In this document: positions 134-20,599 of the stretch, piece by piece | Layout of the letters: the number at the start of each line of letters is the position of its first letter | Position numbering within the stretch: position 1 is the first letter of the stretch | Assembly (NCBI GenBank): GCA_947585115.1 | Contig: CANPWW010000015.1 | Span: forward strand, 1-40,603 | DNA: 40,603 nt | Direction of reading: 5' to 3' | Origin: an uncultured Monoglobus sp. | GTDB taxonomy: Bacteria > Bacillota > Clostridia > Monoglobales > Monoglobaceae | Program-made: the position numbers and the translations under genes | The notes under the pieces: model-generated | What the model saw: only the letters and a program-made list of their open reading frames with translations | Databases searched by the model: none | What the model was told of the DNA's origin: nothing

Positions 134-175
134 CCCCCCTCAGTCGCCTTCGGCGACAGCTCCCCCGAGGGGGGA
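134..175 (+). repeat. Type B hairpin repeat, copy B1
   Basis: The element reads CCCCCCTCA, a perfect stem GTCGCC(143-148)/GGCGAC(152-157) with loop TTC, then AGCTCCCCC and a second small hairpin CCCCC-GA-GGGGG. It is preceded by a degenerate TAGGGAY heptamer tract (about 98-131). The flanks match copies at 413, 13549, 13684 and 20555, but the inner stem differs among them. There is no T-tract, so it is not a standard terminator. Confidence 0.8.
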
Positions 176-178
176 GCC

Positions 179-276
179 GGGCGGCAGATTGCCGCCCCTA
201 CAGGATTTGGCGGAATTCGTGCGTTTGTGGCGATATGATATATCATTAGCGCCGTAGGGGCGGATATTATCCGCCC
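179..276 (+). repeat. Type A paired-palindrome element, copy A1
   Basis: A 98-bp element. The left end is the palindrome GGGCGGCAGATTGCCGCCC followed by CTAC. The right end is GTAG followed by GGGCGGATATTATCCGCCC. The two palindromes therefore lie in inverted orientation around a poorly conserved centre. Copies of 99 and 100 bp are at 7644 and 18382. The arrangement resembles REP doublets (REPINs/BIMEs) or a MITE; no transposase is in the window. This copy interrupts a B/C module. Confidence 0.8.
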
Positions 277-338
277 GTTTGTCTCCCCCCGAGGGGCGCC
301 TAATTTATGTGCCTCCCCCGAGGGGGCGCCAAATTAAA

Positions 339-394
339 GCCTCCTCCCGGGAGGAGGTGGTTGCGGCTTGCCGCAAACGGAGGTGGGAACGTAG
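339..394 (+). repeat. Type C hairpin repeat, copy C1
   Basis: The order is the palindrome GCCTCCTCCCGGGAGGAGG, the direct repeat GGAGGTGG (353-360), a variable stem TTGCGGC(361-367)/GCCGCAA(370-376), a second GGAGGTGG (379-386) and GAACGTAGG. The stem sequence differs in the other C copies while pairing is kept. Two CCCCCGAGGGG-type hairpins at 283-330 link it to the element before it. Confidence 0.8.
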
Positions 395-412
395 GCACTG
401 GGGAGTAGGGAT

Positions 413-454
413 CCCCCCTCAGTCGCCTTCGGCGACAGCTCCCCCGAGGGGGCG
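413..454 (+). repeat. Type B hairpin repeat, copy B2
   Basis: The inner stem is identical to B1 (GTCGCC 422-427, GGCGAC 431-436, loop TTC), with the same CCCCCCTCA and AGCTCCCCCGAGGGGG flanks. With the linker hairpin at 467-486 and C2 it forms the cleanest complete B-C module of the window, about 413-559. Confidence 0.8.
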
Positions 455-494
455 CTTAATTTATGTGCCTCCCCCGAGGGGGCGCCAAATATAT

Positions 495-559
495 GCCTCC
501 TCCCGGGAGGAGGTGGATTTTCGCCGAAGGCGAAAAGACGGAGGTGGGAACGTAGGGAT
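495..559 (+). repeat. Type C hairpin repeat, copy C2
   Basis: The GCCTCCTCCCGGGAGGAGG palindrome is followed by GGAGGTGG (509-516), stem TTTTCGCC(518-525)/GGCGAAAA(529-536) with loop GAA, GGAGGTGG (540-547) and GAACGTAGGGA. A heptamer tract of the TAGGGAC type follows to about 577. A short ORF across 279-569 is only the translation of these repeats. Confidence 0.8.
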
Positions 560-604
560 TAGGAACTAGGGACTAGGGCCGCGGGATAAATATAAAAATA
601 TATA

Positions 605-633
605 TTGAAAAATAATAAAATATGTGCTATAAT
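605..633 (+). promoter_or_regulatory. Sigma-A promoter for the envelope cluster
   Basis: TTGAAA (605-610), a 17-bp spacer and TATAAT (628-633), with a TGn extended -10 directly upstream (625-627). The start would fall about 35-40 bp before the first gene of the cluster. No other clear promoter is seen before the later genes of the cluster, which fits one long transcript. Confidence 0.75.
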
Positions 634-678
634 TATCATGATATATTATAACAAATTTCAATTGTTGAGGATGTAAAC

Positions 679-2997
679 ATGATCACACGCAAAACAACGT
701 ATTTGATTATTTTAATAACGCTGCTTGTTTCGTCATTTGCGGCGGTTCCGGTCCGCGCCGACGAGGGTGAGGGCGGCGCGCCGCAAAAATCCTATCACGA
801 TGCGGCCCATACCATGAGCGCGGAGGCGCGCAGATCGCTGTCCGATTATCTCTGCCGTTTCGGCGCGTGCTACACGACCGAATTCGAAAGCGACAGCGGC
901 GGAAAAATAGTTTTCGACACCTCGAACTGGAACGAGAAAATGTCCGAAATTATCTGGTGGCAGTTTTTGGCATACAGCAAGACCGACCGTGAAAACCCCA
1001 ACGCGCCCATATACGGCGATACCAAGCTTGTGACGCCCGAGACGCTGCGCCGCTGCGTTAAAAACACGTTTAATATCGACAGCACTCCGTCGGATGTTAT
1101 CGACATTGCCGATAAGTATTACATCGACCACACCGACGGCAATTTCCATCCGCCGCAGCAGGACCCCGACGGCACCATGTGGACGCGCTCGCCCGAGAGC
1201 TGCAAGATACAGTACTTCGCCGAACTGGACGACGGCACCTACATCGCCCATTACATACCCGAATATCTTGAGTCGGCCAGCGGCAAGCACAACGGCTCGC
1301 TGTACTACGCGAAACTGAAACTCGCGCCCACCTCCTGCGGCTATGTGGCGGCCGAGCTGGGCACCGTCTCGTCTCTTGACGACAGCATGATAAAAATGGG
1401 TTTTCTCGACGACGCGGCAAGAGGCTCGCGTGCGCTCTCAAACATCGCGATCGACTATGAGGCGGCGGGGGCTTTTTCCACGATCGACGAATACGAGAAA
1501 TACCTGAACGAAATAATTGACGGCCTTGGCGAAAACTCTCCCAACGGCCCGGCGGTCAACGATATCGCGGCGTATATCAGCGCCGCGTGCCTCAGAAATT
1601 CCGGAGCTCGCCTTAAGGCCGAGAGCAATACGGTCACGATAACGGCCGGCACTATTCGGGACTCGGCGGCCGCCGCCGTGCGCACCAGCGCGGCGCTGTG
1701 GGAAAATCTCGACCGCAGAGGCATCCACCCCAACAAGGATGTCGTCGTGCCGATACAGCTGATAATAACCGATCTTGACGAGAACTCTCCGCCGCGCATA
1801 GTGTTTGACGAGAGCCTCAGGGCCGACGATATGGGCATATCCAACATGCGCGTGCTGATAGGCGACAACAGCCACAGCCTGATAATGGACAAGGCCACCT
1901 GCAATCTGATAATTGACCGTCACGGCTCGTTTACCGTTGAGATGGGCGCGGCCATGGGCGGCGGCTATATAATCAATTTCTACGACCGGGACATGAACCT
2001 GATCGACAAGCTGCCTACCAAGGTGAATTTCTCAATACCCGCGGGCGGCGAGTACGACAGCGTTTACAACACCTGCGACGGCAGAGATTTTAACATCGGC
2101 GGCATATACGACCCGATAAACGGCGCCATAGAGTTCAAAACCAACTCGATCGGGCTTTACAAGACAAAAAACAATGAGCCGAAAATTTCCGATATAGACG
2201 AGCTGCCGGACGATGAGAAGGAACACATCAAACAGCTTGTCTCGAAGGATTACTTCGCGGCTCCGGGCGGACGGTTCCGTCCCGACGACCAGTATGCAAA
2301 CTACGACGCGGCAAGAGCGATAGCGGGCATGCTGTTCACGGTCGACACCGACGCCAGAGTTGACTACAGCGATATAGACGAGTCCGACCCGCAGGCGGTC
2401 TATGTGGCCTCGATCGACGAGGCGGGTATCCGCCTGTACACCGACCAGGGCGGCCTCAGGTTCAACGGAAACTCGGCGGTCGGCCTTGAGGACAGCTTCA
2501 CGCGGAGCCTCGGACTGCTTGTGGAATACAAGGGCTACTACTATCCCGATATGGGAAATGACAGCGACCGCCCGTACGCGAGCATGTATCTGAATTATCC
2601 CGATATACAGTATATGGACAAAGAGTCGCTGCCCGCCTTGGCGATGGGCGCGCGGGAGGGCATAATAAACGACGGCATGGCGCTGTGCAACACCGAGAAC
2701 CGATTTGACCGCAGAAGCGCGGCGGAGTTTTTGTATCGGCTGTTTGAGCGCATGTGCCAGGTCTCGCCCTCAAAATTTGACGCGGGCGAGAGCGGATATA
2801 TGTCGAACACGGTGTTCTATAACCCGCTCACCACCATGAAGTTTGAGACGCCGCCGATAGTATACCTGTACTTAGGCTGCTTCGCGGTGGGCATATTGTT
2901 CGCGATAATACTCTATATAATGCAGAAAAAGCATAAGATAGTCAATGAGAACGCCGCGGATTCCCGCGAGGATGACGACTACTGGAACGAATACTAA
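679..2997 (+). CDS. Membrane-anchored SLH-like exported protein
   Basis: A 772-residue exported protein. Residues 1-27 are a signal peptide (basic start, hydrophobic run, cleavage near VRA-DE). A hydrophobic segment at about 727-748 followed by QKKHK would anchor the C-terminus in the membrane with a short acidic cytoplasmic tail. Two stretches near residues 523-555 (GGRFRPDDQYANYDAARAI) and 640-693 (YPDI...A...GIINDG...NRFDRRSAAEFLYRL) have the spacing of degenerate S-layer homology repeats. The remaining ectodomain is not recognised. A GAGG ribosome site at 667-670 supports the ATG. It is the first gene of a run with FHA, SEDS and PBP genes, so an envelope or septal role is likely but unproven. 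Confidence 0.8.
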   Translation: MITRKTTYLIILITLLVSSFAAVPVRADEGEGGAPQKSYHDAAHTMSAEARRSLSDYLCRFGACYTTEFESDSGGKIVFDTSNWNEKMSEIIWWQFLAYSKTDRENPNAPIYGDTKLVTPETLRRCVKNTFNIDSTPSDVIDIADKYYIDHTDGNFHPPQQDPDGTMWTRSPESCKIQYFAELDDGTYIAHYIPEYLESASGKHNGSLYYAKLKLAPTSCGYVAAELGTVSSLDDSMIKMGFLDDAARGSRALSNIAIDYEAAGAFSTIDEYEKYLNEIIDGLGENSPNGPAVNDIAAYISAACLRNSGARLKAESNTVTITAGTIRDSAAAAVRTSAALWENLDRRGIHPNKDVVVPIQLIITDLDENSPPRIVFDESLRADDMGISNMRVLIGDNSHSLIMDKATCNLIIDRHGSFTVEMGAAMGGGYIINFYDRDMNLIDKLPTKVNFSIPAGGEYDSVYNTCDGRDFNIGGIYDPINGAIEFKTNSIGLYKTKNNEPKISDIDELPDDEKEHIKQLVSKDYFAAPGGRFRPDDQYANYDAARAIAGMLFTVDTDARVDYSDIDESDPQAVYVASIDEAGIRLYTDQGGLRFNGNSAVGLEDSFTRSLGLLVEYKGYYYPDMGNDSDRPYASMYLNYPDIQYMDKESLPALAMGAREGIINDGMALCNTENRFDRRSAAEFLYRLFERMCQVSPSKFDAGESGYMSNTVFYNPLTTMKFETPPIVYLYLGCFAVGILFAIILYIMQKKHKIVNENAADSREDDDYWNEY

Positions 2998-3042
2998 ATC
3001 AAATCGGGCGCGGAAACAACATATGTTTAAAAGGAGGACATT

Positions 3043-3489
3043 ATGACAGTATACAGTTTTATATCAACGATCCTGAGTTATGTTTTCACTGTGATAATAT
3101 ATGTTTTCATAATTTTCGTGATTCGCCTCATATATCTGGACGTCAAAAAAATGAGCCGCTTTGAGGACAACAGCATAGCCGACGAGGCGTGCGCCAGCCT
3201 GAGGCCCGTGAAGTCCAAAACCGAGCCGCGCAGTCCGCTCAAGCGCCGCTATAACATATACGGCGAGGCGGTTATCGGCAGAAATCCCGAGTGCGATATT
3301 GTGATAAACGAGAGCTTTGTCTCGCAAAAGCACCTTATCATATGGTACGAGGGCGGCGAGTGGTACCTTGAGGATTTGGGAAGCAGAAACGGAACGACGA
3401 TAAACGGCAAAAGAATTTTAAATGAGGTGATCCTCGATCCCGAGGACGTGATCTCGATCGGCGGTCTGAACTTCGTGTTTGAGACTTGA
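3043..3489 (+). CDS. Membrane-anchored FHA-domain protein
   Basis: 148 residues. A hydrophobic segment at about residues 7-31 anchors the protein, leaving a cytoplasmic FHA domain at about 70-147. The phosphothreonine-binding signature is complete: G79-R80, S94-x-x-H97 and N116-G117. FHA domains bind phosphothreonine peptides, usually produced by Ser/Thr kinases. AAGGAGG at 3030-3036 gives a strong ribosome site. It is followed after 11 bp by a SEDS gene and then a PBP. This order matches the actinobacterial FHA-rodA-pbpA cluster, but no kinase or phosphatase gene lies in this window. Recruitment or phospho-dependent control of the SEDS-PBP pair is an inference. Confidence 0.9.
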   Translation: MTVYSFISTILSYVFTVIIYVFIIFVIRLIYLDVKKMSRFEDNSIADEACASLRPVKSKTEPRSPLKRRYNIYGEAVIGRNPECDIVINESFVSQKHLIIWYEGGEWYLEDLGSRNGTTINGKRILNEVILDPEDVISIGGLNFVFET

Positions 3490-3500
3490 GAGGTGATACT

Positions 3501-4751
3501 ATGGGAATGGACCGCTTAAAATCCGCAGGCTACCGAAAGCCCGCCTATTTGCTGATTTTGCTCAATGTGCTGGGGTTCGGCCTGCTGTTTATAAATAAAG
3601 AAAATAATTATAATTTGAATATTCTGTATACCGGCGCGGCGGTGATGGTGCTGTTTCTGGTTATGTACACCGCGCTTGTGCTGGGCCGCATGGGCGACAA
3701 GTTTATAATGCTGATGGTGTTTATGCTCATATCTATCGGCGTGCTTTTGCTGTGCAGGATAAATTTGAGCTACGCCTTCCGCCAGATTATATGGATACTG
3801 GTCGGCGGCGCGGTGTTCTTTATCGCGTATTTTGTATATTATAACGTCAAGATCTGGAACAAGCTGTGGTATTTGTACTTCATCGGCGGAACGCTGCTGT
3901 TTTTGATAACGCTGGTTTTCGGAACCACGGTCTACGGCTCCAAAAACTGGATCTCGATCGGCCCGATCTCTTTTCAGCCGTCAGAGATAACCAAGATATT
4001 GTTTATCATGTGCCTGGCGTGCTACACAAGCGGCAGCTGGTCAAAGCCGCTTTTGGGCAAAGTCAAGCCGAAATGGGCGGCGCTGCTGATAACCTACGTG
4101 TTTGTGGGCTTTCTGGTCCTGCAGCGCGACTGGGGCACTATACTCGTTATGTTCTCGATATATCTTTTCATGATATATGTGTACGAGCCCGACAAGAAGC
4201 TGCTGGCGCTCAATATCTGCGCGCTGGTGATAATCGGACTGCTGGGCTGGAGATTTTTGTACCACATTCAGGTGCGCATAGCCAACTGGATCGATCCCTG
4301 GTCGGATATCTCAAACAGGGGCTACCAGATAGCTCAGTCGCTGTTCGCCATATCCTCGGGCGGATATTTCGGCAGGGGTTTGGGCAACGGCTCGCCTAAT
4401 TATATCCCGCTTGTGCACTCCGACTTTATCTTCGCCGCGATATGCGAGGAGATGGGCGTGTTCGGCGGAGTGGCGGTCATACTGCTGTTCTTTTTGATAG
4501 CCTACCGCTGCTTTAAGATCTCGATCATGGCGTCCGACCCGTTCGACAAGGCGGTCAGCTTCGGCGTGACCGTGATGTTCGCGCTCCAGACGTTTATAAT
4601 AATAGGCGGCGTTATCAAGATGATCCCGCTGACGGGAATAACTCTGCCGTTTGTCAGCTACGGCGGAACCTCGGTAGTTATCAGTTTCGCCTCAATGGGT
4701 ATCATTCAGGCGATCTCCGCCAAGGCCGAGCGAAAGGGGGGAGCCCAATGA
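3501..4751 (+). CDS. SEDS glycosyltransferase (FtsW/RodA/SpoVE family)
   Basis: 416 residues with about ten membrane segments. SEDS proteins polymerise glycan strands from lipid II together with a class B PBP. Family hallmarks seen are WISIGPISFQPSE near the middle, GRGLGNGSPNYIPLVHSDFIFAAICEE, and LPFVSYGGTSV near the C-terminus. The ATG at 3501 is preferred to an in-frame TTG at 3486 because GAGAGGTGA (3488-3496) is well placed for it. The stop overlaps the PBP start (ATGA), which implies translational coupling. Pairing with a short PBP and an FHA protein favours the RodA/PbpA type over division FtsW, but sequence alone does not settle this. Confidence 0.92.
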   Translation: MGMDRLKSAGYRKPAYLLILLNVLGFGLLFINKENNYNLNILYTGAAVMVLFLVMYTALVLGRMGDKFIMLMVFMLISIGVLLLCRINLSYAFRQIIWILVGGAVFFIAYFVYYNVKIWNKLWYLYFIGGTLLFLITLVFGTTVYGSKNWISIGPISFQPSEITKILFIMCLACYTSGSWSKPLLGKVKPKWAALLITYVFVGFLVLQRDWGTILVMFSIYLFMIYVYEPDKKLLALNICALVIIGLLGWRFLYHIQVRIANWIDPWSDISNRGYQIAQSLFAISSGGYFGRGLGNGSPNYIPLVHSDFIFAAICEEMGVFGGVAVILLFFLIAYRCFKISIMASDPFDKAVSFGVTVMFALQTFIIIGGVIKMIPLTGITLPFVSYGGTSVVISFASMGIIQAISAKAERKGGAQ

Positions 4752-6124
4752 ACACAAATAAGCGGATCATAAGGGTGCTGGTGGTTATCGCTTTGCTGTT
4801 TCTGGCGCTCGCCTCATATTTGCTCTGGTTCAACATGTTCAGAGCCAAAGAGGTGTACACCAACTCATACAACCGCCGCCAATGGGAAAGCGAGCAGCAC
4901 ATAAAGCGAGGCAGCATTTACTCAAGCGAGGGCGAGCTGCTGGCCGAGACAAGGATCAGCGACGACGGAACGCGCACGCGCAGGTACCCGAGGGGAAGGC
5001 TGTATTCCCACGTTATCGGCTACTCGTCTCAGGTGTACGGCAAGACCCTGCTGGAGATGTCGAGAGACGCCGACCTGGTCGGCAAGGGAAATATAGGAAT
5101 AAGCATTGGCGATAACCGCCCCGGAAACAACCTGCATCTGACCGTGCTGGATTATTTGCAGGAGTACGCCTACGACCAGCTGGACGGCAGGCACGGAGCG
5201 ATAGTCGCGATGGAGCCCACCACCGGCCAGATACTGGCGATGGTGAGCCTGCCCGATTTTGACCCCAACACCATAGAGGACGACTGGGAAGGAATAATGG
5301 AGGACAAGAGCTCGCCGTTCCTCGCCCGCGCCACGCAGGGCCTTTACCCGCCCGGCTCCACCTACAAGATCGTGACCTCGGCGGCCGTTTACGAAAACGG
5401 CAGGACCACCGAGACCTTCGACGATCCCGGAGTTTTCAAGCAGGGCGATGTGGAGGTAAACAACTACGGCGGCGAGGCCTTCGGAAGCATTGACATAAAG
5501 ACAGGCTTTGAGAAGTCCAGCAACTATGTATTCTGCAGTCTGGGCTACGAGATGGGCGCCGAGAGCGTCCGCGCCGAGGCCGAGAAGTTCGGCATAAATA
5601 AAGACTTGGAGTTCGACATACCAACATCCAAGAGCGAGATACAATACGGCCGCATGACCGACCTGGACGCCGCGCTGGTGTCGATCGGACAGGGCGGACT
5701 TGTGATGACGCCGCTGCATGTGGCGATGATGGCGTCCGCCGTGGCGAACGGCGGCAAGATGATGAAGCCGTATCTGGTCGAGACCGTCACCACCGAAAAC
5801 GGCACGGTGATAGGCCAGACAAAGCCGTCGGTGCTGTATGAGAGCGTGGGCCCCGCCTGCGCATCGTATGTGCGCGACATGATGATCGGCGTGGTGGAGG
5901 AGGGAACCGGAACCACGGCTCAGATAGACGGGATCACGGTGGCAGGAAAGACCGGCACCGCCGAGACCGAGGGCGGCGAGGACCACGCCTGGTTCGTGGG
6001 CTACGCTCCCGCCGAGAACCCGAAAATATGCGTGGCGGTGCTGCTTGAAAACAACGGCACTCCCGGCGGAAAAACCGCGGCGCCCATCGCGAGAAACATA
6101 ATGCGCAGATTTTTAAACGAGTAA
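4748..6124 (+). CDS. Class B penicillin-binding protein (PbpA-like transpeptidase)
   Basis: 458 residues. There is one N-terminal membrane segment (about 7-28), a short pedestal region, and a transpeptidase domain from about residue 145. All three penicilloyl-enzyme motifs are present: S204-T-Y-K207, S257-S-N259 and K401-T-G403. The protein is short for PBP2/FtsI and has no PASTA domains, as in actinobacterial PbpA. It cross-links peptidoglycan made by the SEDS partner encoded just upstream, with which it overlaps by 4 bp. A GGGGGG-rich ribosome site lies at 4735-4743 inside the upstream gene. Confidence 0.93.
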   Translation: MNTNKRIIRVLVVIALLFLALASYLLWFNMFRAKEVYTNSYNRRQWESEQHIKRGSIYSSEGELLAETRISDDGTRTRRYPRGRLYSHVIGYSSQVYGKTLLEMSRDADLVGKGNIGISIGDNRPGNNLHLTVLDYLQEYAYDQLDGRHGAIVAMEPTTGQILAMVSLPDFDPNTIEDDWEGIMEDKSSPFLARATQGLYPPGSTYKIVTSAAVYENGRTTETFDDPGVFKQGDVEVNNYGGEAFGSIDIKTGFEKSSNYVFCSLGYEMGAESVRAEAEKFGINKDLEFDIPTSKSEIQYGRMTDLDAALVSIGQGGLVMTPLHVAMMASAVANGGKMMKPYLVETVTTENGTVIGQTKPSVLYESVGPACASYVRDMMIGVVEEGTGTTAQIDGITVAGKTGTAETEGGEDHAWFVGYAPAENPKICVAVLLENNGTPGGKTAAPIARNIMRRFLNE

Positions 6125-6155
6125 AAAATTAAAAAAAAACAGGAGGCAAAGAGGG

Positions 6156-7625: not shown

Positions 7626-7643
7626 AGAAAATATTTATTGAGC

Positions 7644-7742
7644 GGGCGGATAATATCCGCCCCTACGGGCAGCTAAGATATATCGAATTAGAAAGAACGC
7701 GCGAATTGTGCCACTTCTTGTAGGGGCGGCAATCTGCCGCCC
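7644..7742 (-). repeat. Type A paired-palindrome element, copy A2
   Basis: A 99-bp copy in reverse orientation. The left palindrome GGGCGGATAATATCCGCCC (7644-7662) plus CTAC and the right palindrome GGGCGGCAATCTGCCGCCC (7724-7742) preceded by GTAG mirror the A1 layout. The inner about 60 bp share little with A1 beyond AT-rich stretches. The rest of 7626-8019 holds this element, A4 and a TAGGGAC tract at 7760-7791; no gene is seen there. Confidence 0.8.
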
Positions 7743-7793
7743 GTTTGCCTCGCCAAACATAGGGACTAGAGAATAGTAACTAGGGACTAGGCC

Positions 7794-7866
7794 GGGACGC
7801 CGAGGTCGTCGTCCCCTACGACAATAATACGTAAAATGCCATAGGGTGGACGACTCCGCATGTCCT
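7794..7866 (+). repeat. Diverged type A element, copy A4
   Basis: GGGACG(7794-7799)...CGTCCC(7810-7815) followed by CTACG repeats the layout of the type A left end with different arm sequence. Near 7845 ATAGGG precedes GGAC...GTCC (7849-7863), mirroring the right end. The spacing is shorter (about 73 bp). A heptamer tract sits directly upstream. It is read as a diverged or separate subfamily. Confidence 0.5.
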
Positions 7867-13389: not shown

Positions 13390-13439
13390 GGCGGAAAACC
13401 GCCAAACCCGATTATAGCACAAATGTTGGGCCATTGCAA
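13390..13439 (-). promoter_or_regulatory. aroF promoter and leader hairpin
   Basis: TTGCAA (13434-13439), 17-bp spacer, TATAAT (13411-13416) with an upstream TGn. The leader then forms GGCGG/CCGCC (13390-13394 with 13399-13403, four-base loop) followed by GAATAATTTTT. This looks like a small intrinsic-terminator-like structure before the ribosome site. An attenuation role is only a possibility. Confidence 0.65.
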
Positions 13440-13488
13440 GAAATATTTGCTAATTTTGCCTCGCCTCTTGGGGAGAGCCTAGTCTCTA

Positions 13489-13539
13489 CGTTCCCACCTC
13501 CGTCAGGCTTACGCTTGCCATCTCCTCCCGGGAGGAGGC
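13489..13539 (-). repeat. Type C hairpin repeat, copy C3
   Basis: Reverse-orientation copy. The palindrome TCCTCCCGGGAGGA sits beside the two flanking repeats CCACCTCC (13494-13501) and CCATCTCC (13518-13525, one mismatch). The variable stem is CAGGC(13504-13508)/GCTTG(13513-13517) with one G-T wobble and loop TTAC. Confidence 0.75.
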
Positions 13540-13548
13540 ATTAAACAG

Positions 13549-13592
13549 GCGCCCCCTCGGGGGAGCTGTCGGGCAACGCCCGACTGAGGGGG
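13549..13592 (-). repeat. Type B hairpin repeat, copy B3
   Basis: Same flanks as B1/B2 on the other strand, but the inner stem is GTCGGGC(13568-13574)/GCCCGAC(13578-13584) with loop AAC. All bases that differ from B1 are matched by changes in the opposite arm. A tract of the CTAGTCCCTA type follows (13595-13622). Confidence 0.8.
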
Positions 13593-13622
13593 GATACTAG
13601 TCCCTATTTCCTAGTTTCTACC

Positions 13623-13673
13623 TTCCCACCTCCGTCTGCGGCAAGCCGCAGCCACCTCCTCCCCGGAGGAGGC
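13623..13673 (-). repeat. Type C hairpin repeat, copy C4
   Basis: The variable stem CTGCGGC(13636-13642)/GCCGCAG(13645-13651) lies between CCACCTCC repeats at 13626-13633 and 13652-13659. Next to them is CCTCCTCCCCGGAGGAGG. Confidence 0.8.
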
Positions 13674-13683
13674 AATCATGGTT

Positions 13684-13728
13684 AGCTCCCCCTCGGGGGA
13701 GCTGTCTGCGCAGCAGACTGAGGGGGGA
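13684..13728 (-). repeat. Type B hairpin repeat, copy B4
   Basis: The inner stem is GTCTGC(13704-13709)/GCAGAC(13713-13718) with loop GCA; the flanks are as in the other B copies. It ends two bases from the stop codon of the decarboxylase gene, so it forms the start of that gene's 3' untranslated region. The whole 13440-13728 gap consists of B and C elements and heptamer tracts. Confidence 0.8.
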
Positions 13729-13729
13729 G

Positions 13730-15172
13730 TTATACCGTGGCGACGTTGATATAATCGAGCTTTACGTCTTCGGTTCCGGTCATGAAACAGCCTTTTTCTT
13801 TCGCGTAGGCTATGTATTCGAGTATCTCACCCGTTATCCGCTCGCCGGGCGCGAGGATCGGGATCCCCGGCGGGTAGCACATCACAAACTCGCTGCACAC
13901 CATTCCCGCGCTTTTCCCGACGGGCACCGCGCGCTTGGGCGCGTAGAACGCCTGCTTGGGCGCCAGAACCACCTCGGGCGAAATGTACTCGTGATCCAGC
14001 ATTCCGACCGGAGAGCGGCGATGTATATGCTCGATCTGGCTCAGGGCCGAGATCAGCCGCTCGATCATCAGGTCGGTGTCGCCCACCGAGATTATCGCCA
14101 GGATATTGCCTATATCCCCGAATTCTATCTGTATATCGTAGTCGTCGCGCAGAATGTCGTAGACCTCGATCCCGGCGAGGCCTATGTCGCGCGTGTGCAC
14201 CGAGAGCTTTGCCGAGTCGAAATCATACGCGGCCTTGCCGTCGATTATCTCTTTGCCGAAGGCGTAGTAGCCGCCGATCCTGTTGACCTCGTCGCGGGCG
14301 TAATCCGCGAGGCCGACGACCTTTTTGTAAATTTTCTTTCCGCTTTGCGCCAGATTCTTTCTGGACAGATCAAGCGACGACATCAAAAGATACGAGCCGC
14401 TGGTGGTCTGGGTCAGGTTTATGATCTGGCGGGTGTAGCCCTCGCTGATATAATTATTGATAAGCAAAAAAGAGCTCTGGGTCAGGGAGCCGCCGTTTTT
14501 GTGCATGCTCACGGCGGCCATGTCGGCTCCCGCGGCCATCGCGCTGAGCGGAAGCCCGCCGCCGAAATAGAAATGTGTGCCGTGGGCCTCGTCTACAAGC
14601 ACCGTCATTCCCGCCCGGTGGGCGATCTCCACAATTTTTTTGAGGTCGCTGCACACGCCGTAGTATGTGGGATTGTTGACGAACACGGCCTTGGCGTCGG
14701 GGTTGTTTTCTATCGCGAGGCGCACATCGTCGACGCTCATTCCGAGCGGTATTCCCAGCCGTTTGTTGACGCCGGGATTGACGTAGACCGGGACCGCTCC
14801 GTTCACCACAAGGGCGTTTATCGCGCTGCGGTGGACGTTCCGCGGAAGTATTATCTTTTCGCCCTCTTTCACGCAGGAAAAAATCATGGCCTGGACCGCG
14901 CTTGTGGTCCCGTTGACCATGAAAAAAGCGTGCCGCGCGCCAAAGGCCTCGGCCGCCAGCTCCTCCGCCTCGCGGATAACCGACACCGGGTGGCACAGGT
15001 TGTCGAGAGGCTTCATCGAGTTGACGTCGGTCTCCATGCACTGTCTGCCCAGAAAAGCCGTCAGCTCGGGGTTCCCCTTGCCGCGCTTGTGGCCGGGCAC
15101 GTCAAACGGCACTATTCTTTTTGATTTGAAAATTTGTAAAGCCTCGTATATCGGGGCCCTGTTCTGCTGCAA
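13730..15172 (-). CDS. Orn/Lys/Arg decarboxylase (PLP, SpeA-like)
   Basis: 480 residues from a TTG start. This is the compact fold-type I decarboxylase family (Bacillus SpeA/CadA type, no N-terminal wing domain). Motifs are VPFDVPGHKRGKG, VNGTTSAVQAMI, D194-E-A-H in LVDEAHGTHFYFGGG, and the PLP-binding K225 in VSMHKNGGSLTQSS. The open frame extends about 60 codons upstream, but that part overlaps speD and its residues are unlike the family. GGAGG (complement of 15181-15185) fits the TTG at 15172, 14 bp after speD. The substrate cannot be assigned; arginine is most likely given the family and neighbour. Confidence 0.9.
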   Translation of the reverse strand: MQQNRAPIYEALQIFKSKRIVPFDVPGHKRGKGNPELTAFLGRQCMETDVNSMKPLDNLCHPVSVIREAEELAAEAFGARHAFFMVNGTTSAVQAMIFSCVKEGEKIILPRNVHRSAINALVVNGAVPVYVNPGVNKRLGIPLGMSVDDVRLAIENNPDAKAVFVNNPTYYGVCSDLKKIVEIAHRAGMTVLVDEAHGTHFYFGGGLPLSAMAAGADMAAVSMHKNGGSLTQSSFLLINNYISEGYTRQIINLTQTTSGSYLLMSSLDLSRKNLAQSGKKIYKKVVGLADYARDEVNRIGGYYAFGKEIIDGKAAYDFDSAKLSVHTRDIGLAGIEVYDILRDDYDIQIEFGDIGNILAIISVGDTDLMIERLISALSQIEHIHRRSPVGMLDHEYISPEVVLAPKQAFYAPKRAVPVGKSAGMVCSEFVMCYPPGIPILAPGERITGEILEYIAYAKEKGCFMTGTEDVKLDYINVATV

Positions 15173-15186
15173 TACCCTGCCCTCCG

Positions 15187-15990
15187 TCAATAAATATTCT
15201 GGCCGCTGAAAATCTCGATCATCTCGCGGCGCAGGCTGTGGCTTATATTCAGTCTGGTTTTGGGGTCCAGCTCGTAAACGTCGGTCTTGAACAGATAGTT
15301 CTGAAGGTCGATCTCCTTTATCAGCAGCTTGGTGTGGAACATGTTGCACTGATAAACATTGACGTCTATCGCGTCGTAGCGCTCGAGAGTCTTTTTGTCT
15401 ATATAGTCCTGTATCGAGGTTATGTCGTGGTCGATGAACAGCTTTTTGCCGTCAAGGTCACGCGTGAAGCCGCGCACGCGGTAGTCCGCGGTGATTATGT
15501 CGGAGTCAAAGCTGCCTATCAGGAAGTCCAGCGCTTTGAGCGGCGATATCTTGCCGCAGGTGGAAACGCAGATATCCACGCGGAAGGTGGAGATCGCCTT
15601 GTCGGGGTGGTACTCGGGATAGGTGTGCACCGTGACATGGCTCTTGTCGAGGTGGGCCATGATCTCGTCCCCCGCGACCGTGCTGCTGTAGGTGGGCTGG
15701 GCGGGCTTCATCGAGTCGTCGCTTATCATCAGGTTGACGCTGGCGCCCTGGGGCTCGTAGTCCTGCTTGGAGATGCTCAGCACATTGGCGCCGATTATCT
15801 CGGTGACCTTGAGCAGAATATTTGTCAGGCGCTCCGAGTTATACTGCTCGTCAATATACGCGATATAGTCCTTCTGCTCGCGCTCGCTCTTGGCGTAGCA
15901 CACGTCGTAAATATTAAAGCTCAGCGTTTTTGTAAGATTGTTGAACGCGTAAAGCTTTATCCTGCCGCCGTCGTTATTCGAATTTTTCAT
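15187..15990 (-). CDS. speD: S-adenosylmethionine decarboxylase proenzyme
   Basis: 267 residues, close to the 264 of E. coli SpeD. It supplies decarboxylated AdoMet, the aminopropyl donor for spermidine. The processing site is [13 protein letters not shown]; the Ser (residue 117 from this start) would become the pyruvoyl group after cleavage behind Lys. The AGAGGGAG site overlaps an alternative ATG at 15999 with no proper spacing but lies 9 bp before the ATG at 15990, which is therefore preferred. It sits between a signal-peptidase-like gene and a decarboxylase gene in one operon. No speE-type aminopropyltransferase gene is in the window. Confidence 0.95.
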
Positions 15991-16028
15991 AGCCGTCATC
16001 TCCCTCTGAGCTTATTTTTGCTTCCCTT

Positions 16029-16583
16029 TTATTTTATCTTTTTTGTGACTATGCCGAACACGTCGCTCTCGGCTATCGGGCCGAACTCGCGGCTGTCGCG
16101 GCTGTTTCCCCTGTTGTCGCCCATAACAAAGACGTAACCCTGCTCTATGATCAGCGGATTATCCTTTCCGTAGCCGCCGCCCGCGAGGCCGCTTATATAG
16201 CTGCCGCCCACTCCGGGTGAGCTTTTCGCGTAGGGCTCGTCGTAGAGCTCGCCGTTTATGTACAGCCTGCCGCTCTGCATGTCCAGATACAGGCTGTCGC
16301 CCCCGACCGCCACTATCCGCGAGACCGAGGCGCCCTTGCCGCCGCTGCTGAACGTCACAATATCGCCGCGGCCGAGCTCGTCAAAGGTCTTGTCTATAAG
16401 CCATCTCTCGCCGTTCATGACGGTGGGCTCCATGCCCGTGCCGCTGACCTTTATCATTGAAAAAGCGAATCTGTTGAGCAAAAAAGTTATGATAACCGCC
16501 GCCGCAAGAGCGCAGATCACGATAACCGGGATCCTGAGCGCGGGGCTTTTTTTCCTCACAGCTTTCGCGCTGTTTTCTTCCAT
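16029..16583 (-). CDS. Signal peptidase I-like protein lacking both catalytic residues
   Basis: 184 residues. There is one N-terminal membrane segment (about 18-38) followed by an S26A fold. The box order is intact: VSGTGMEPTV (44-55), RGDIV, SRIVAVGGDSL (88-98) and GDNRGNSRDSREFGPI (155-170). In active enzymes the residue before MxPT is the nucleophile Ser; here it is Gly50 (codon GGC). The general-base Lys of the K-R-[IV] motif is Ser88 (codon TCG). Staphylococcus aureus SpsA is a known paralogue that also lacks the catalytic residues. The ATG at 16583 is chosen over one 30 bp upstream because GGGAG (complement of 16592-16596) fits it. The frame is intact, so this is not obviously a decaying gene. 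Confidence 0.9.
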   Translation of the reverse strand: MEENSAKAVRKKSPALRIPVIVICALAAAVIITFLLNRFAFSMIKVSGTGMEPTVMNGERWLIDKTFDELGRGDIVTFSSGGKGASVSRIVAVGGDSLYLDMQSGRLYINGELYDEPYAKSSPGVGGSYISGLAGGGYGKDNPLIIEQGYVFVMGDNRGNSRDSREFGPIAESDVFGIVTKKIK

Positions 16584-16640
16584 ACAAAATTCTCCCGTTT
16601 TGCCGAAAAACATTTCGGAAATTTACACTGTGTAACTTGT

Positions 16641-16669
16641 ATTATAGTATAATATGCCGCGGTTGTCAA
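16641..16669 (-). promoter_or_regulatory. Consensus promoter of the speD operon
   Basis: On the minus strand TTGACA (16664-16669), exactly 17 bp, TATAAT (16641-16646): both hexamers are perfect. It would drive the signal-peptidase-like gene, speD and the decarboxylase as one transcript (gaps of 38 and 14 bp). Confidence 0.88.
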
Positions 16670-16716
16670 CAATATTTTCCCAGTCCGCGCCGCGTAATCG
16701 CCTCGTAAAAAATCCC

Positions 16717-16745
16717 TTGCCAAATTTATATTGTTGTGCTATACT
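16717..16745 (+). promoter_or_regulatory. Promoter of the GH43 gene
   Basis: TTGCCA (16717-16722), 17-bp spacer, TATACT (16740-16745), divergent from the speD operon promoter. The gene starts at 16784 with GAAAGG at 16771-16776. Confidence 0.7.
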
Positions 16746-16783
16746 TTAGCAAGTTTAACAAATTATCATAGAAAGGCAAAAAC

Positions 16784-18307
16784 ATGAAATACAATAATCC
16801 GGTAAGGCGAGGCTTTTATCCCGACCCGTCGATAATCCGCGTGGGAGACGATTTTTACATGGCGAACTCGTCGTTTCAGTACTTTCCCGCGATACCCATA
16901 TCCCATTCAAAGGATCTTGTGCACTGGGAGACGATCGGCCACGCGATAACCGATCCCGAATACCTTGACCTGAGCGAGATCATGGACTCGCGCGGTATCT
17001 GGGCCCCCGACATATTTTTCGACGAGAGCGAAAAAATGTTTTACGTCGTCGCAACCCTGCGTCTCAACGATTGGGAGCGCCCGGCGCGGAGACAGCTTTT
17101 GATGAAATCGAAGCGCCCCGAGGGTCCATACTCAAAGCCTATCATACTCGACGCCGACAACATCGACCCGTCGCTGTTTTTCGACGACGACGGCAAAAAA
17201 TACATGGTGATCGCCAGAGCCGCCACGGTGTATGAGCTGGACGATAAGTGCGAAAAGCTGATAAGCGGCCCGCGCACGGCATGGGCCGGTACAGGAGAGC
17301 GCTGCGCGGAAGGCCCCCACATCATGAAGCGTGGCGGATACTACTACGCGATCGTGGCGGAGGGCGGCACGGGCTACGGCCACGGCATAAACGTCGCCCG
17401 CTCGAGGGAGCTGTTCGGCGAGTACGAGGAGTGCCCCTATAACCCCGTTATGCGCCAGACCGACCACGAAAAGCTCATTCAGCGCACCGGCCACGGCAAG
17501 CTGGTGAAGGACCAGAACGGAGACTGGTGGGCTGTGTATCTGTGCGGCAGGCGCAACATGGGCAACTATACCACTCTCGGCCGCGAGACCGCGCTCGACC
17601 CGGTAACATGGACCGAGGACGGCTGGTTTTTGATAAACGGCGGAAACGGCCCCAGCGAGGAACAGACCGCGCCCGATCTGCCGCCCTTTGAGGGCGAGCC
17701 GAAAAGCTTTTTCGACGACTTTGAGCAAAACAAAATCGGGCCGCGCTGGGAGTTTGTGCGCAACCCGAATTATGATTACATATCGCTGAATGACGAGAAA
17801 AAATCCCGACTGCGGCTCTATACCGCGCCGGGAAACATGTATGAGGTAAAGGCGAAAAACATACTGGTGTGCCGCGAAAGCGAGCTTTGCGGCGCGGCCG
17901 AAACGCTCATGGAGTTCGAGCCCGCCGAGGGAACGCGCGCGGGCATGACCTGCTACTACAGCACCGCGACCTATATCAGGTTCAACGTGACAAAGCGCGG
18001 CGGCAAAAACATGCTGGAGCTGGTCATAAACCGAAACGAGGGCGAGGAGCTTATATCCGAGGCCGAGATAACGAGCGGCAAAATATACCTTCGGATAGAG
18101 ACTGAGTATCAGACCCGCAGATTTTTGTACGGCTTTGACGGCGAGAGCTACACCGAACTGGGCGCGGTCGAGCCCTGCACGTTTTTGTGCGACGAGGGCG
18201 TGCCTAACGACCGCAAGCGCCACACCGGCACAATGACAGGCATTTTCGCCCACTCCGACGGCAAAAAGATCCCCACCGACTTCGATTGGTTCAAAACGGA
18301 GTATTAA
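16784..18307 (+). CDS. Glycoside hydrolase family 43 (beta-xylosidase/arabinofuranosidase type)
   Basis: 507 residues without signal peptide, so cytoplasmic. An N-terminal five-bladed propeller (about 1-310) carries the GH43 triad: base D14 in FYPDPSI, D128 in NIDPSLFFDDDG, and acid E176 in CAEGPHIMKRGGYYY. A C-terminal beta-sandwich (about 315-507) matches the XynB-type accessory domain. Such enzymes cleave xylo- or arabino-oligosaccharides after import. The exact substrate cannot be read from motifs. It is monocistronic with its own promoter, between the polyamine operon and repeats. No transporter gene is adjacent. Confidence 0.9.
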   Translation: MKYNNPVRRGFYPDPSIIRVGDDFYMANSSFQYFPAIPISHSKDLVHWETIGHAITDPEYLDLSEIMDSRGIWAPDIFFDESEKMFYVVATLRLNDWERPARRQLLMKSKRPEGPYSKPIILDADNIDPSLFFDDDGKKYMVIARAATVYELDDKCEKLISGPRTAWAGTGERCAEGPHIMKRGGYYYAIVAEGGTGYGHGINVARSRELFGEYEECPYNPVMRQTDHEKLIQRTGHGKLVKDQNGDWWAVYLCGRRNMGNYTTLGRETALDPVTWTEDGWFLINGGNGPSEEQTAPDLPPFEGEPKSFFDDFEQNKIGPRWEFVRNPNYDYISLNDEKKSRLRLYTAPGNMYEVKAKNILVCRESELCGAAETLMEFEPAEGTRAGMTCYYSTATYIRFNVTKRGGKNMLELVINRNEGEELISEAEITSGKIYLRIETEYQTRRFLYGFDGESYTELGAVEPCTFLCDEGVPNDRKRHTGTMTGIFAHSDGKKIPTDFDWFKTEY

Positions 18308-18320
18308 ACCGCATCAACTT

Positions 18321-18345
18321 GCCTCCTCCCAGAAGGAGGTGGCAA
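18321..18345 (+). repeat. Type C remnant without variable stem
   Basis: GCCTCCTCCC-AGA-AGGAGGTGG is followed directly by CAACATAG. In full copies two GGAGGTGG repeats flank the stem and are followed by GAACGTAG. Here only one GGAGGTGG (18335-18342) remains and the stem is gone, as expected from deletion between direct repeats. A degenerate heptamer-like tract (TAGTGATTAGTAATTAG) follows. Confidence 0.65.
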
Positions 18346-18381
18346 CATAGTGATTAGTAATTAGCGAACAGTAATTAGAAC

Positions 18382-18481
18382 GGGCGGCAGATTGCCGCCC
18401 CTACAGGTTTGATAGAATTTTTGCGGATTGTGACGACACGATACATCATCACCACACCGTAGGGGCGGATAATATCCGCCC
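18382..18481 (+). repeat. Type A paired-palindrome element, copy A3
   Basis: A 100-bp copy in the same orientation as A1. GGGCGGCAGATTGCCGCCC and CTACAGG open it; GTAG and GGGCGGATAATATCCGCCC close it. The centre shares the pattern GAATTTTTGCGGATTGTG with A1 (GAATTCGTGCGTTTGTG). It lies between the GH43 and HAD genes. Confidence 0.82.
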
Positions 18482-18511
18482 GCTTGCCTCTTTTTAAAAT
18501 CCCGTGAATAA

Positions 18512-19153
18512 TTATATGTATTCAAGCAGGCCGCCGGGCCTGCTTATTATTGTTTCCGCTCCGTTTTGCTTTAGTACCTCCCTCGGACGGAAGCCCCAGT
18601 CCACGGAAACAAGGTCAATACCCGCGTTTTCGGCGGTCATTATATCCACCTCGGAATCGCCGACGTACAAGGCGTCCTTCTTCTCAAATCCCGAAAGCCG
18701 CAGCACCTCAAGCACCGAGTCGGGCGCGGGCTTTCTTTTTATGCCCTCGCGCTCGCCTACGGCGGTTCCCACCGTGTCCGCGAAATATTTTTCGGCAAGG
18801 CTGCGCACGGCGCGGTCGTTTTTGTTGGAGACTATCGCGCATTTTACGCCTCTCGCTTTAAGCTCTTTAAGCAGCTCGGGCACTCCCTCATACGGCTTTG
18901 TTTTCACGGCGCAGTTCTCGGAATAAAACGCGCGGAACTCGCCGAACACTCTTTCATAGTCGGGATTGTCCCTGCCGTCGGGCAGTGCGCGTGCGATCAG
19001 ATTGCCTATGCCGTTGCCCACGAAGTTTGTGACCTCGGCCACCGTCCGCGGCGGATATCCGAATTTTTCAAGGGAATGATTGACGCCGTCGGCCAGATCG
19101 TCGATGGTGTTGAGCAGCGTTCCGTCCAGGTCAAAAATAATTATCTTCTTCAT
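18512..19153 (-). CDS. HAD-family hydrolase, phosphoglycolate phosphatase-like
   Basis: 213 residues. HAD motif I is IFDLDGTLLNT (nucleophile D8, acid D10), motif II lies in CAIVSNKNDRA, the Lys of motif III is in GIKRKPAP, and motif IV is YVGDSEVD. The cap domain (about 15-85) is the helical C1 type of PGP/Gph enzymes. The substrate is probably a small phosphate ester such as 2-phosphoglycolate. The ATG begins 1 bp after the enolase stop, so it is translationally coupled to enolase. This suggests a housekeeping role in removing glycolytic side products (inference). Confidence 0.9.
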   Translation of the reverse strand: MKKIIIFDLDGTLLNTIDDLADGVNHSLEKFGYPPRTVAEVTNFVGNGIGNLIARALPDGRDNPDYERVFGEFRAFYSENCAVKTKPYEGVPELLKELKARGVKCAIVSNKNDRAVRSLAEKYFADTVGTAVGEREGIKRKPAPDSVLEVLRLSGFEKKDALYVGDSEVDIMTAENAGIDLVSVDWGFRPREVLKQNGAETIISRPGGLLEYI

Positions 19154-19154
19154 A

Positions 19155-20426
19155 TTATCCGTTCATCTCCCGCTCGATCTTCAAAAGTCTGTTGTATTTA
19201 GCCACGCGCTCGCCGCGGCAGGGCGCGCCCGCTTTGATATATTCCGCGTTCACCGCCACGGCTATGTCGGCGATCGCGGCGTCCGAGGTCTCGCCGCTGC
19301 GGTGGGAGATTATCGGCGCGTATCCGTTGGTTTTCGCCAGCTCTATCACGTCGAGCGTCTCGCTCAGCGTTCCGATCTGGTTGGGCTTTATGAGTATCGA
19401 GTTGGCGATCCTGAGATCAAAGCCCTTTTTCAGTCTTGCGGCGTTGGTGACGAACAGATCGTCGCCCACCAGCTTTATTTTTTTGCCCAGAGTGTCGGTC
19501 AGCATCTCCCAGCCCTCGAAATCGTCCTCGGCCATTCCGTCCTCGATCGAGATGATCGGATACTTGCGGCAGTAGCCGCTCCAGAGCTTCACCATGTCGT
19601 CGCGGCTGAGCATGCGGTTCTGCTTCCAGAAATAATACTGTCCGCTCTCGCCGACCTTTTCCGCCTCGCCGAACATCTCGCTGGCCGCCGCGTCGAGGGC
19701 CAAAGCGAAATGGAAGCCCGGCTTGAAGCCCGCGCGGGTCACCGCGCTCATTATCAGCTTTATAGCCTCCTCGTCGCCCTGGAGCAGCGGCGCGAATCCG
19801 CCCTCGTCGCCCACGGCGGTGCCGAGGCCGCGCTCGGTTAAAATATTTTTCAGCGTTTGGTACACGCGGACGCACCACATCAGACCCTGCTCGAAGCTCT
19901 TGGCCCCGATCGGGATTATCATAAACTCCTGTATGCTCAGGTTGTTGTCGCTGTGGCGTCCGCCGTTGATTATGTTCATCATCGGCTTGGGCAGTCTCGC
20001 GGCAGCCGCTCCGCCTATATATTGATAGAGCCCCAGACCCAGCGCGTTGGCCGCGGCATTGGCAGCGGCGAGAGACACGCTGAGTATCGAGTTGGCGCCC
20101 AGCCGCGACTTGGTATCGGTGCCGTCAAGCTCGATCATCTTTTTGTCGATCGCCCTCTGGTCGATGACGTTCATGCCGCGGAGCTTGGAGCGCAGGTGCT
20201 CGTTCACGACCCGAACCGCCTTCAAAACGCCCTTTCCCATATATCTTGCGCCGTCGCCGTCTCTGAGCTCGAGCGCCTCGTGAGCGCCGGTAGACGCGCC
20301 CGAGGGCACCGAGGCTCTGCCCACGCTTCCGTCGTCGGTGTAGACCTCGGTCTCGATCGTGGGATTGCCGCGCGAGTCCAGTATCTCCCTCGCCCTTATG
20401 TCCTCTATTCCTATATAAGATTTCAT
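19155..20426 (-). CDS. eno: Enolase
   Basis: 423 residues, standard length. It converts 2-phosphoglycerate to phosphoenolpyruvate. Motifs are [13 protein letters not shown] and [15 protein letters not shown] near the N-terminus, [15 protein letters not shown] for metal binding, IKPNQIGT with the catalytic Lys, and [11 protein letters not shown]. The ribosome site AAAGGAAAAAGG is the complement of 20432-20443. It is the first gene of a two-gene operon with the HAD phosphatase. Confidence 0.98.
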
Positions 20427-20481
20427 AGGCCTTTTTCCTTTCGTTTTATCTTTTTAAAATAAGATTTCCCGATTTTTATTA

Positions 20482-20510
20482 ATTATACCATATTATTATT
20501 ACTTTGTACA
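20482..20510 (-). promoter_or_regulatory. Promoter of eno
   Basis: On the minus strand TGTACA (20505-20510), 17-bp spacer, TATAAT (20482-20487). The -10 is perfect; the -35 matches four of six bases. Confidence 0.55.
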
Positions 20511-20554
20511 GTTCGGATTTTTGGCGCGAGGCAACGGGCGGAGGCAGAAGTTAG

Positions 20555-20599
20555 GCGCCCCCTTGGGGGAGCTGTCAGCGCAGCTGACTGAGGGGGGAT
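20555..20599 (-). repeat. Type B hairpin repeat, copy B5
   Basis: The flanks match B3/B4. The inner stem is GTCAGC(20574-20579)/GCTGAC(20583-20588) with loop GCA. Compared with B4 one base pair is exchanged (T-A to A-T) on both sides. A CTAGTCCCTAGATCCTAATC tract follows to 20635. There is no C element next to it. Confidence 0.8.

Follow-up and report, generated by a model that had tools for sequence, protein, structure and literature searches.

Variable hairpin repeats of a Monoglobus contig: maintained pairing, mirrored flanks and a possible link to minimal mobile units carrying DUF559

Why would a short DNA repeat keep its hairpin paired while the bases of the stem change from copy to copy? 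The question is raised by contig CANPWW010000015.1 of an uncultured Monoglobus sp. (assembly GCA_947585115.1), whose entire 40,603 nucleotides we call the window. Its genome, G000, is 90% complete. The window carries five copies of a repeat, type B, with four different inner stems, and copies of a similar repeat, type A. A preliminary description of type B ascribed the differences to compensatory change and considered the structure itself, as RNA or as single-stranded DNA, to be likely what is maintained or what the copying mechanism produces. We compared the repeats within G000, in a set of 60 genomes of relatives that includes G000 (G labels), and in fetched loci (L labels). On balance, we think that type A and type B repeats probably form the ends of a family of very small mobile units, or derive from such units that have lost the gene, with a DUF559 protein acting on the folded ends.

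Type B and type A repeats in the window

All five type B copies were recovered by a pattern search (none in 100 shuffles), with the stems previously listed for them. Four type A modules were located near them.

135..172, plus strand: type B module (pattern match 136-166), with the flank (predicted third strand), hairpin 1 GTCGCC/GGCGAC and the first part of hairpin 2
414..451, plus strand: type B module (pattern match 415-445), hairpin 1 GTCGCC/GGCGAC
13553..13592, minus strand: type B module (pattern match 13559-13591), hairpin 1 GTCGGGC/GCCCGAC
13689..13726, minus strand: type B module (pattern match 13695-13725), hairpin 1 GTCTGC/GCAGAC
20559..20596, minus strand: type B module (pattern match 20565-20595), hairpin 1 GTCAGC/GCTGAC
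340..386, minus strand: type A module, CCACCTCC, hairpin TTGCGG/CCGCAA, then CCACCTCCTCCCGGGAGGAGG; B-like architecture in the orientation opposite to B
496..547, minus strand: type A module, hairpin 1 TTTTCGCC/GGCGAAAA
13494..13538, plus strand: type A module, degraded hairpin 1 (AGGCTTACGCTTGCC)
13626..13672, plus strand: type A module, hairpin 1 TGCGGC/GCCGCA

On the C-rich strand, type B reads CCCCCTCA, GTC, a variable stem-loop, GAC, A, and GCTCCCCC..GGGGGC/AGC. Its inner stem-loop measures 15-17 nt in the window, plus a 1-nt linker. The single A after hairpin 1 is followed by hairpin 2, GCTCCCCC-GA-GGGGGnGC (GCTCCC..GGGAGC). Type A has the same architecture: CCACCTCC, GTC, a variable stem-loop, GAC or GCC, A, and CCTCCTCC..GGAGGAGG. 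In the window, A lies about 40 bp after B in the opposite orientation, and heptads of the form TAGNRAN join the reverse complement of A, rc(A), to the next B. The flanks abutting type B are CTCA and CTCC/GGAG-like, with no GTAG tag.

Pairing of hairpin 1

The exact type B pattern occurred 38 times in G000, 19 times per strand, and its backwards control not at all; exact type A copies numbered 63. With the outer flanks alone fixed there were 50 matches (3 + 2 in the control), of which one was attributed to chance and 49 were kept. Hairpin 1 was perfectly paired in 40 of these copies and had a single mismatch in the other nine. This was often a T.C or A.C in the second pair of the stem (GTC..GCC, GCC..GAC), for which GCC..GGC is the compensated form. 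Paired cells amounted to 312 of 325, compared with a mean of 287.8 and a maximum of 300 when the 3′ arms were dealt randomly among copies of equal length (500 shuffles). The excess of pairing within G000 is real yet modest because the stem GTCGGGC is common to 20 of the 49 copies.

Counting G000, 26 of the 60 genomes contained the exact type B pattern. Among the matches listed, some of which were due to chance (e.g. L190 and L223), relatives had further perfect stems (ATC/GAT, ACC/GGT and AC/GT), and paired copies were seen in Caulobacter vibrioides, Bifidobacterium ramosum and Longimonas halophila. The genome-wide collection proposed in the preliminary description thus bore out its view that pairing is maintained across differing stems: most copies are paired. 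Its term "compensatory change" is too strong for what the five copies show; entire stem-loops seem to have been swapped from copy to copy and between types A and B. The stem cores TGCGG..CCGCA and AGGC..GCCT are common to types A and B, so some stem differences need not reflect base-by-base compensation.

Elements were also found in or near phage packaging genes. The 14.7 kb viral contig L132 has 12 type B copies with four stem versions, 10 of them in one orientation. At 21 element-bearing loci (L068, L070, L076, L090 and others) we noted a shared protein family that resembles phage terminase by eye.

Covariation of the outer flank with hairpin 2

The stem is one part of the maintained structure; a second hairpin, overlooked in the preliminary description, co-varies with the outer flank as in a predicted triple helix. 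The letters met on going outward from GTC along the flank are those met on going inward along the 5′ arm of hairpin 2. At one mirror position (n = 273) the combinations were C/C in 137, T/T in 120, A/T in 8 and others in 8. The G-rich strand begins with hairpin 2, continues with linker T and hairpin 1, and ends with the flank, which is antiparallel to the purine arm. This is the order of a class II intrastrand triplex, in which a pyrimidine arm, a purine arm and an antiparallel reverse-Hoogsteen strand lie on one strand. Flank and arm match on this strand according to the purine-motif triplets G*GC, A*AT and T*AT. To judge from their sequences, the repeats of both types therefore probably fold as a class II intrastrand DNA triplex with the variable hairpin as its second loop.

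A detector that relied on the two hairpins alone was run on 427 sequences (3.17 Mb). It found a one-base linker in 276 elements. In 296 elements, arm C faced flank C in 1396 cells, T in 48, A in 5 and G in 2, while arm T faced flank T in 421, A in 158, C in 4 and G in none. Allowed triplets therefore made up 1975 of the 2034 cells facing arm C or T. The pair beside the stem was G-A in 240 of these elements, C-C in 51, T-T in 3 and something else in 2. The innermost pair would be a T*CG triplet, and this triplet is tolerated.

With the detector based on the two hairpins alone, the triplet-allowed fraction was 0.81 in the observed register and at most 0.48 in any other. Under a stricter definition of the hairpins there were 300 elements, of which 240 matched a search pattern and 60 matched neither pattern. 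For these 60 the allowed fraction was 0.845, against a mean of 0.624 and a maximum of 0.685 with permuted flanks. For the 240 it was 0.990, against 0.835 (maximum 0.860), with several inner positions fixed by the search. When the 33 distinct arm types were compared with their commonest flank (positions 1-7), 24 showed a full mirror, 4 had one misfit and 5 did not fit. In 53 pairs of elements from the same contig or genome (35 contigs), 75 of 83 arm changes had a matching change at the corresponding flank position; flank changes totalled 109. Because each comparison stays within one contig or genome, most effects of descent are removed.

Two other relations between flank and arm were rejected. 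Watson-Crick pairing would need an antiparallel complement, and a mirror is seen instead. If the C-rich strand formed a pyrimidine-motif triplex, flank A would not be favoured opposite arm T, where it was found in 158 cells.

Pairing of the stem might also be produced without selection for a fold, by template switching in hairpins at replication (quasi-palindrome correction), a mechanism that PMC8794818 describes for RNA genes. TTT and AAA loops occur on one stem, as expected of hairpin inversion. However, such switching leaves unexplained both the covariation of flank and arm across hairpin 1 and the fixed GTC/GAC, and nine one-mismatch copies persist in G000. We regard this origin of the pairing as possible but unlikely.

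DUF559 genes at the repeats

Clustering of the proteins encoded near the elements gave a family of about 150 amino acids in 10 loci. A 70-residue piece of this cluster matched no Pfam family, but a query with the full domain identified PF04480 (DUF559), with 3hrl as the best PDB match (E 2.4e-12). PF04480 was found in 22 of the 60 relatives, in 18 with E below 1e-10. Such strong matches were present in 16 of the 26 genomes bearing type B and in 2 of the 34 others. In the genus of the window, DUF559 genes of G003, G006 and G011 are bracketed by A and B ends that belong to other classes.

A strict detector found an element at 23 of 30 DUF559 loci and at none of 10 loci of PF01797, the Y1 transposase family. 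With a looser detector, whose count drops six weak or partial DUF559 loci (L469-L473 and L479), an end lay within 250 bp in 22 of 24 strong loci, on both sides in 11, and there were 11 elements elsewhere in the loci. Among the controls it detected an end at 1 of 10 loci of PF01797 and at 2 of 27 DUF559-like loci that are weak or large. Of 22 genes, 10 have an element whose start is 22 bases upstream of the stop codon's last base (offset -22), so that the DUF559 protein terminates inside the repeat (e.g. QSLSQLR). In four genes (L456, L459, L468 and L476) the start codon follows an A-type end at a distance of 2-5 bp.

The association was also seen beyond close relatives. Other families of the phylum contributed three strong DUF559 loci, all with elements, one of them of a new class (ACCACCCC with CCCCTCC). 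The phylum sample consisted mostly of large DUF559-like proteins, and among the 27 weak or large loci the strict detector found one element (L495). PF04480 was present in 25 of 31 genomes reached via the named loci. Of the 30 loci fetched there (L512-L541, domain positions taken as 1501-1815 except for L523), 12 had an element with the strict detector and 16 with the looser one; 3 elements lay elsewhere. End classes differ by group, for example CCCTCCC in Caulobacter and CTCCCCT in Bifidobacterium. The end class, mapped onto a tree built from 55 DUF559 domains, changed 13 times, against a mean of 21.0 and a minimum of 18 in 200 shuffles; the labels covered 37 rows in 9 classes, some put in register by hand, and few branches were well supported.

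In Escherichia coli MG1655, the DUF559 gene ycjD has a published triplex motif, TM_ECO number 9 in Table 1 of Holder et al. (PMC4666352), at 168 bp, and a degenerate arm pair lies over its stop codon, as seen by eye. We picked ten plasmid DUF559 loci from 43 records before their flanks were inspected. A class II motif was found within 200 bp in 9 of the 11 loci formed by ycjD and these ten, with 7 motifs elsewhere and 2 in reversed sequence. The association in this sample spans Deinococcus, Cyanobacteria and Alphaproteobacteria. One of the plasmid loci, L568 of Pseudanabaena, has an alternating triplex-like array of CCCCCCA..TGGGGGG CTA GGGGGGC on both sides of the DUF559 gene. Among 5426 E. 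coli genomes, 80% of the ycjD-region query was covered in 3364, and as much of the neighbouring sapF query in 5371. Strains without the ycjD region have other genes at the place inspected and so offer no clean empty site.

A minimal unit with repeat ends

In relatives, the unit is about 450 bp long, with A and B repeats as its ends and a DUF559 gene as its sole gene (about 120 amino acids, PD-(D/E)XK, Vsr-like). Ten unit loci from G027, G028 (three copies), G031, G032, G033, G034, G035 and G037 were aligned with one another. L454 aligned with L457, L458, L464, L476 and L480 from GCCTCC to GGGAGCC only, over 445-452 bp; the remaining pairs share flanks, and their alignment extends further. Such sharp, repeatable outer ends in unrelated flanks were seen in the relatives, not in the window. 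A gene-less derivative of 119 bp (L481, 1977-2095) lies about 1 kb from a full unit and has an identical left end. At the site of the L461 unit, 471 bp of G028 are replaced by 19 bp in the sister genome G036. Eight other genomes of the genus of G028 were compared: G036 is empty, G031 has the unit, and the alignments of six covered one side only or did not span the site.

L458 (G032) shares the unit and partial flanks with L457 and L480 (G033 and G034) at 84-89% identity, although two genera are involved. This might reflect transfer or a binning error.

The DUF559 genes of the same genus sit between A and B ends, and the units have a gene-less derivative. For these reasons we infer that the chains of rc(A), heptads and B in the window are gene-less relatives of DUF559 units. 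The candidates and the heptad runs are the following.

339..455, plus strand: putative gene-less unit of rc(A), heptad-like spacer and B, outer ends GCCTCC ... GGGGGCG, limits tentative
13550..13674, minus strand: putative gene-less unit of rc(A), heptads and B, limits tentative
99..133, plus strand: heptad run (TAGNRAN)n, 5′ of B
553..580, plus strand: heptad run 3′ of rc(A), without a following B
13593..13620, minus strand: heptad run linking rc(A) and B
20598..20632, minus strand: heptad run 5′ of B

Among 33 B copies in 30 fetched G000 loci, 24 had at least two heptads upstream, and for 9 a simple regular expression found an A-like end no more than 130 bp upstream.

The repeats could instead be passengers, spread by slippage, recombination or another enzyme, with DUF559 as cargo or a trapped host repair gene. 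Many copies occur in genomes without a DUF559 match, and the Caulobacter DUF559 protein VsrA behaves, according to PMC12907096, as a host mismatch-repair-like nuclease. Repeat clusters also coincide with endpoints of inversions between sister species, so recombination acts on the repeats. The window block 13.7-28.05 kb is inverted relative to G002 and G011; G004 has a further inversion, and G010 is partly G011-like. The endpoints lie at 13478-13729 (an A/B cluster), near 18308-18508 and at 28042-28066. Repeats are present at most of these junctions, not at all: 28042-28066 has none in G000. In G011 the repeat block is missing, or other sequence takes its place, at window positions 18308-18508 and 20535-20867. 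Inversions at repeats fit the genome instability that PMC4666352 reports for TM_ECO. A passenger would, however, hardly keep the fixed spacing to the gene ends and the sharp limits in unrelated flanks. Its end class would not be expected to follow the protein tree better than shuffled labels, nor its association with DUF559 to recur in Deinococcus, Cyanobacteria and Alphaproteobacteria. We therefore hold the passenger explanation to be rather improbable, and prefer that the repeats are ends of DUF559 units.

The predicted fold and known systems

The closest published structure is the class II intrastrand triplex motif of E. coli, BoxC/PIT/TM_ECO (Holder et al. 2015, PMC4666352), which is reported there to form a stable triplex in vitro and to be associated with genome instability. 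As in our repeats, a pyrimidine arm, a purine arm and an antiparallel third strand lie on one G-rich strand, T or A faces A:T, and the copies are intergenic, multiple and tied to genome instability. The differences are in the second loop, a variable hairpin of 15-30 nt here and N3 there, and in the arms, 7-8 nt here and 9 nt there. The window sequences do not conform to the TM_ECO consensus CCCTCNCCCN3-6GGGNGAGGGN3GGGNGAGGG. PMC4666352 gives limits for the second loop of 1-6 nt (ITxF) and 0-10 nt (Hoyne); our elements exceed them by containing hairpin 1 in that loop, and searches so limited miss elements with a hairpin in the loop. The main text of that paper names no Firmicutes, Clostridia, Caulobacter or Bifidobacterium.

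The mirror covariation may be real without a triple helix, if a protein reads flank and arm or if a few clades inherited low-complexity pyrimidine sequence. The sequences are indeed pyrimidine-rich, many copies fall into few classes, and the triplex is predicted from sequence. Against this, the contrasts within contigs (75 of 83) remove clade effects. The units L459, L468 and L476 have ends of different class, each mirrored internally; because of these three units we also rejected an inverted repeat of the two ends of the unit as the sole explanation. The allowed cells, moreover, are those of the purine-motif code; among them is A facing T, not favoured by a pyrimidine motif or a plain mirror repeat. 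A mirror without a triplex thus seems improbable to us, and a triplex remains our preferred account of the covariation.

Repetitive extragenic palindromes (REPs) are mobilised, in the RAYT kind, by a Y1 HUH transposase (PF01797). Our repeats resemble them in being palindromes with fixed flanks, variable stems and copies in opposite orientations, and PF01797 is present in 25 of the 60 relatives. It was not matched in G000, and the copy-rich G004, G009, G010 and G011 lack it. PF01797 occurs in 14 of 26 element-bearing genomes and 11 of 34 others, its loci had elements in 0 of 10 (strict) or 1 of 10 (looser) cases, and type B has no abutting GTAG tag. A link to RAYT was therefore rejected as very improbable, there being no Y1 match in G000 and an element at no more than one of the 10 PF01797 loci. 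IS200/IS605 elements are small single-gene units with hairpin ends, in which a flank contacts another part of the end. Our units are likewise small single-gene units with hairpin ends, unlike them in carrying DUF559 in place of a Y1 transposase and in a third strand that is predicted to bind the hairpin, not the cleavage site.

Structural similarities to REPs nevertheless exist. GTAG REPs and the paired units (BIMEs) that go with RAYT (PMC3733652) are also short extragenic palindromes with variable stems and paired units, with one nuclease gene flanked by repeats. They have an HUH and not a PD-(D/E)XK nuclease, carry the GTAG tag, and differ from our repeats in the predicted third-strand flank here. 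CGTC REPs likewise have a conserved tetranucleotide beside the hairpin and no known dedicated transposase; their stems, as described in PMC3733652, have A-T pairs at the start and CCA tails at the end, whereas GTC/GAC is within the stem here.

A role as RNA element or transcription terminator, suggested by two successive GC-rich hairpins that are at times followed by T-runs, was rejected as scarcely credible: Rfam gave no match at gathering score on the window, all 10 sub-threshold matches on 1-700 were far from the gathering score of their family, and 211 elements with called neighbours lay between convergent genes in 39 cases and divergent genes in 41. The crude longest-ORF (open reading frame) caller behind these neighbourhoods was relied on for this comparison only; it placed 119 of 282 elements within a long ORF. 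PMC4666352 also relates that Hoyne and Maher saw no terminator activity for PIT elements. As purine-motif triplexes are reported there not to form in RNA, DNA is indicated rather than RNA. Of the two forms first suggested for the structure, RNA thus found no support, and the kept feature is likely a single-stranded DNA structure.

A model for the ends and its difficulties

We propose that the single strand of each end would fold up compactly. Along the G-rich strand, hairpin 2 (CTCCC..GGGAG) would be followed by hairpin 1 (GTC..GAC, variable) and then by the purine flank (GAGGG), which would fold back, antiparallel, into the major groove of hairpin 2 and serve there as the third strand (purine motif, class II). 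Flank and hairpin 2 would co-vary by the triplet code. Hairpin 1 would cap the turn, so that its pairing alone would matter and its sequence would be free to vary. In an autonomous unit, two such ends would bracket one gene for a DUF559 PD-(D/E)XK (Vsr-like) nuclease of about 120 amino acids. The nuclease may recognise or nick the folded ends when they are single-stranded at a replication fork or break, and this would copy or move the unit. Repeats without the gene may have spread in trans or be relics. The sequences themselves show that the hairpins pair, that flank and arm co-vary as mirrors, where the units end and which gene they contain, together with one empty site, one deletion derivative and an association in several phyla; from these we infer triplex formation, the action of DUF559 on the triplex, the mode of copying and the origin of the chains in the window.

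Several observations weigh against this model. The recurrent misfit of flank T facing arm C (48 cells) departs from the triplet code, and Holder et al. (PMC4666352) did not find the E. coli motif to form a stable triplex in vivo. PF04480 was not matched in G000, at 90% completeness, or in the copy-bearing genomes G004, G005, G009 and G010 of the same genus. The presence of DUF559 by itself is weak evidence because PF01797 is about equally widespread. The strong DUF559 loci L477 and L478 have no end within 250 bp, both ends point the same way in L452 and L453, 14 of the 30 loci L512-L541 have no end by the looser detector, and two Picosynechococcus loci have no class II motif within 200 bp. The empty site comes from one of eight sister genomes; its flanks are TTA / TAA, and a target-site duplication could be at most 2-3 bp, with none resolved.

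DUF559 units with triplex ends might further constitute a distinct minimal class of mobile element in Clostridia, Deinococcus, Cyanobacteria and Proteobacteria, with a nuclease that reads fold and not sequence, and with repeats such as BoxC as its gene-less offspring; the chances of this seem to us evenly balanced. BoxC of E. coli has gone unexplained since the 1990s. The unit gene belongs to the same protein family as the Vsr-like proteins 3hrl and Caulobacter VsrA (PMC12907096), and the available text on VsrA, in contrast to the units here, mentions no mobile unit or repeat association. A published link of DUF559 or ycjD with repeats, triplexes or BoxC was not found, a weak negative given the thin coverage of subscription journals and preprints.

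If the model is true, three-strand covariation would be evolutionary evidence that intrastrand DNA triplexes are maintained in bacteria, which in-vivo footprinting could not show. Repeats of unknown function would gain a candidate enzyme and a route of spreading, and the nuclease would be a structure-recognising PD-(D/E)XK counterpart to the HUH enzymes of RAYT. The freedom of the inner stem to vary while paired would be explained. The same predicted fold at the ends of a nuclease-only mobile unit in relatives hints at a role for long-puzzling bacterial repeats.

Other features of the window

More TAGNRAN heptad runs lie at 7760-7794 and 18348-18368, and one run in the window has neither an A nor a B end. 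A third kind of repeat consists of hairpins of the form GTAGGGGCGGnnnnnnnCCGCCCG at 178-207, 252-285, 7643-7672, 7718-7751, 18381-18410 and 18457-18490, in two stem versions, GATATTATC and CAATCTG. Their GTAG start resembles that of GTAG REPs, though G000 has no PF01797 match. Positions 33484-40500 encode a 2338-amino-acid S-layer-homology protein with a pectinesterase-like domain and low-complexity PTQAP repeats.

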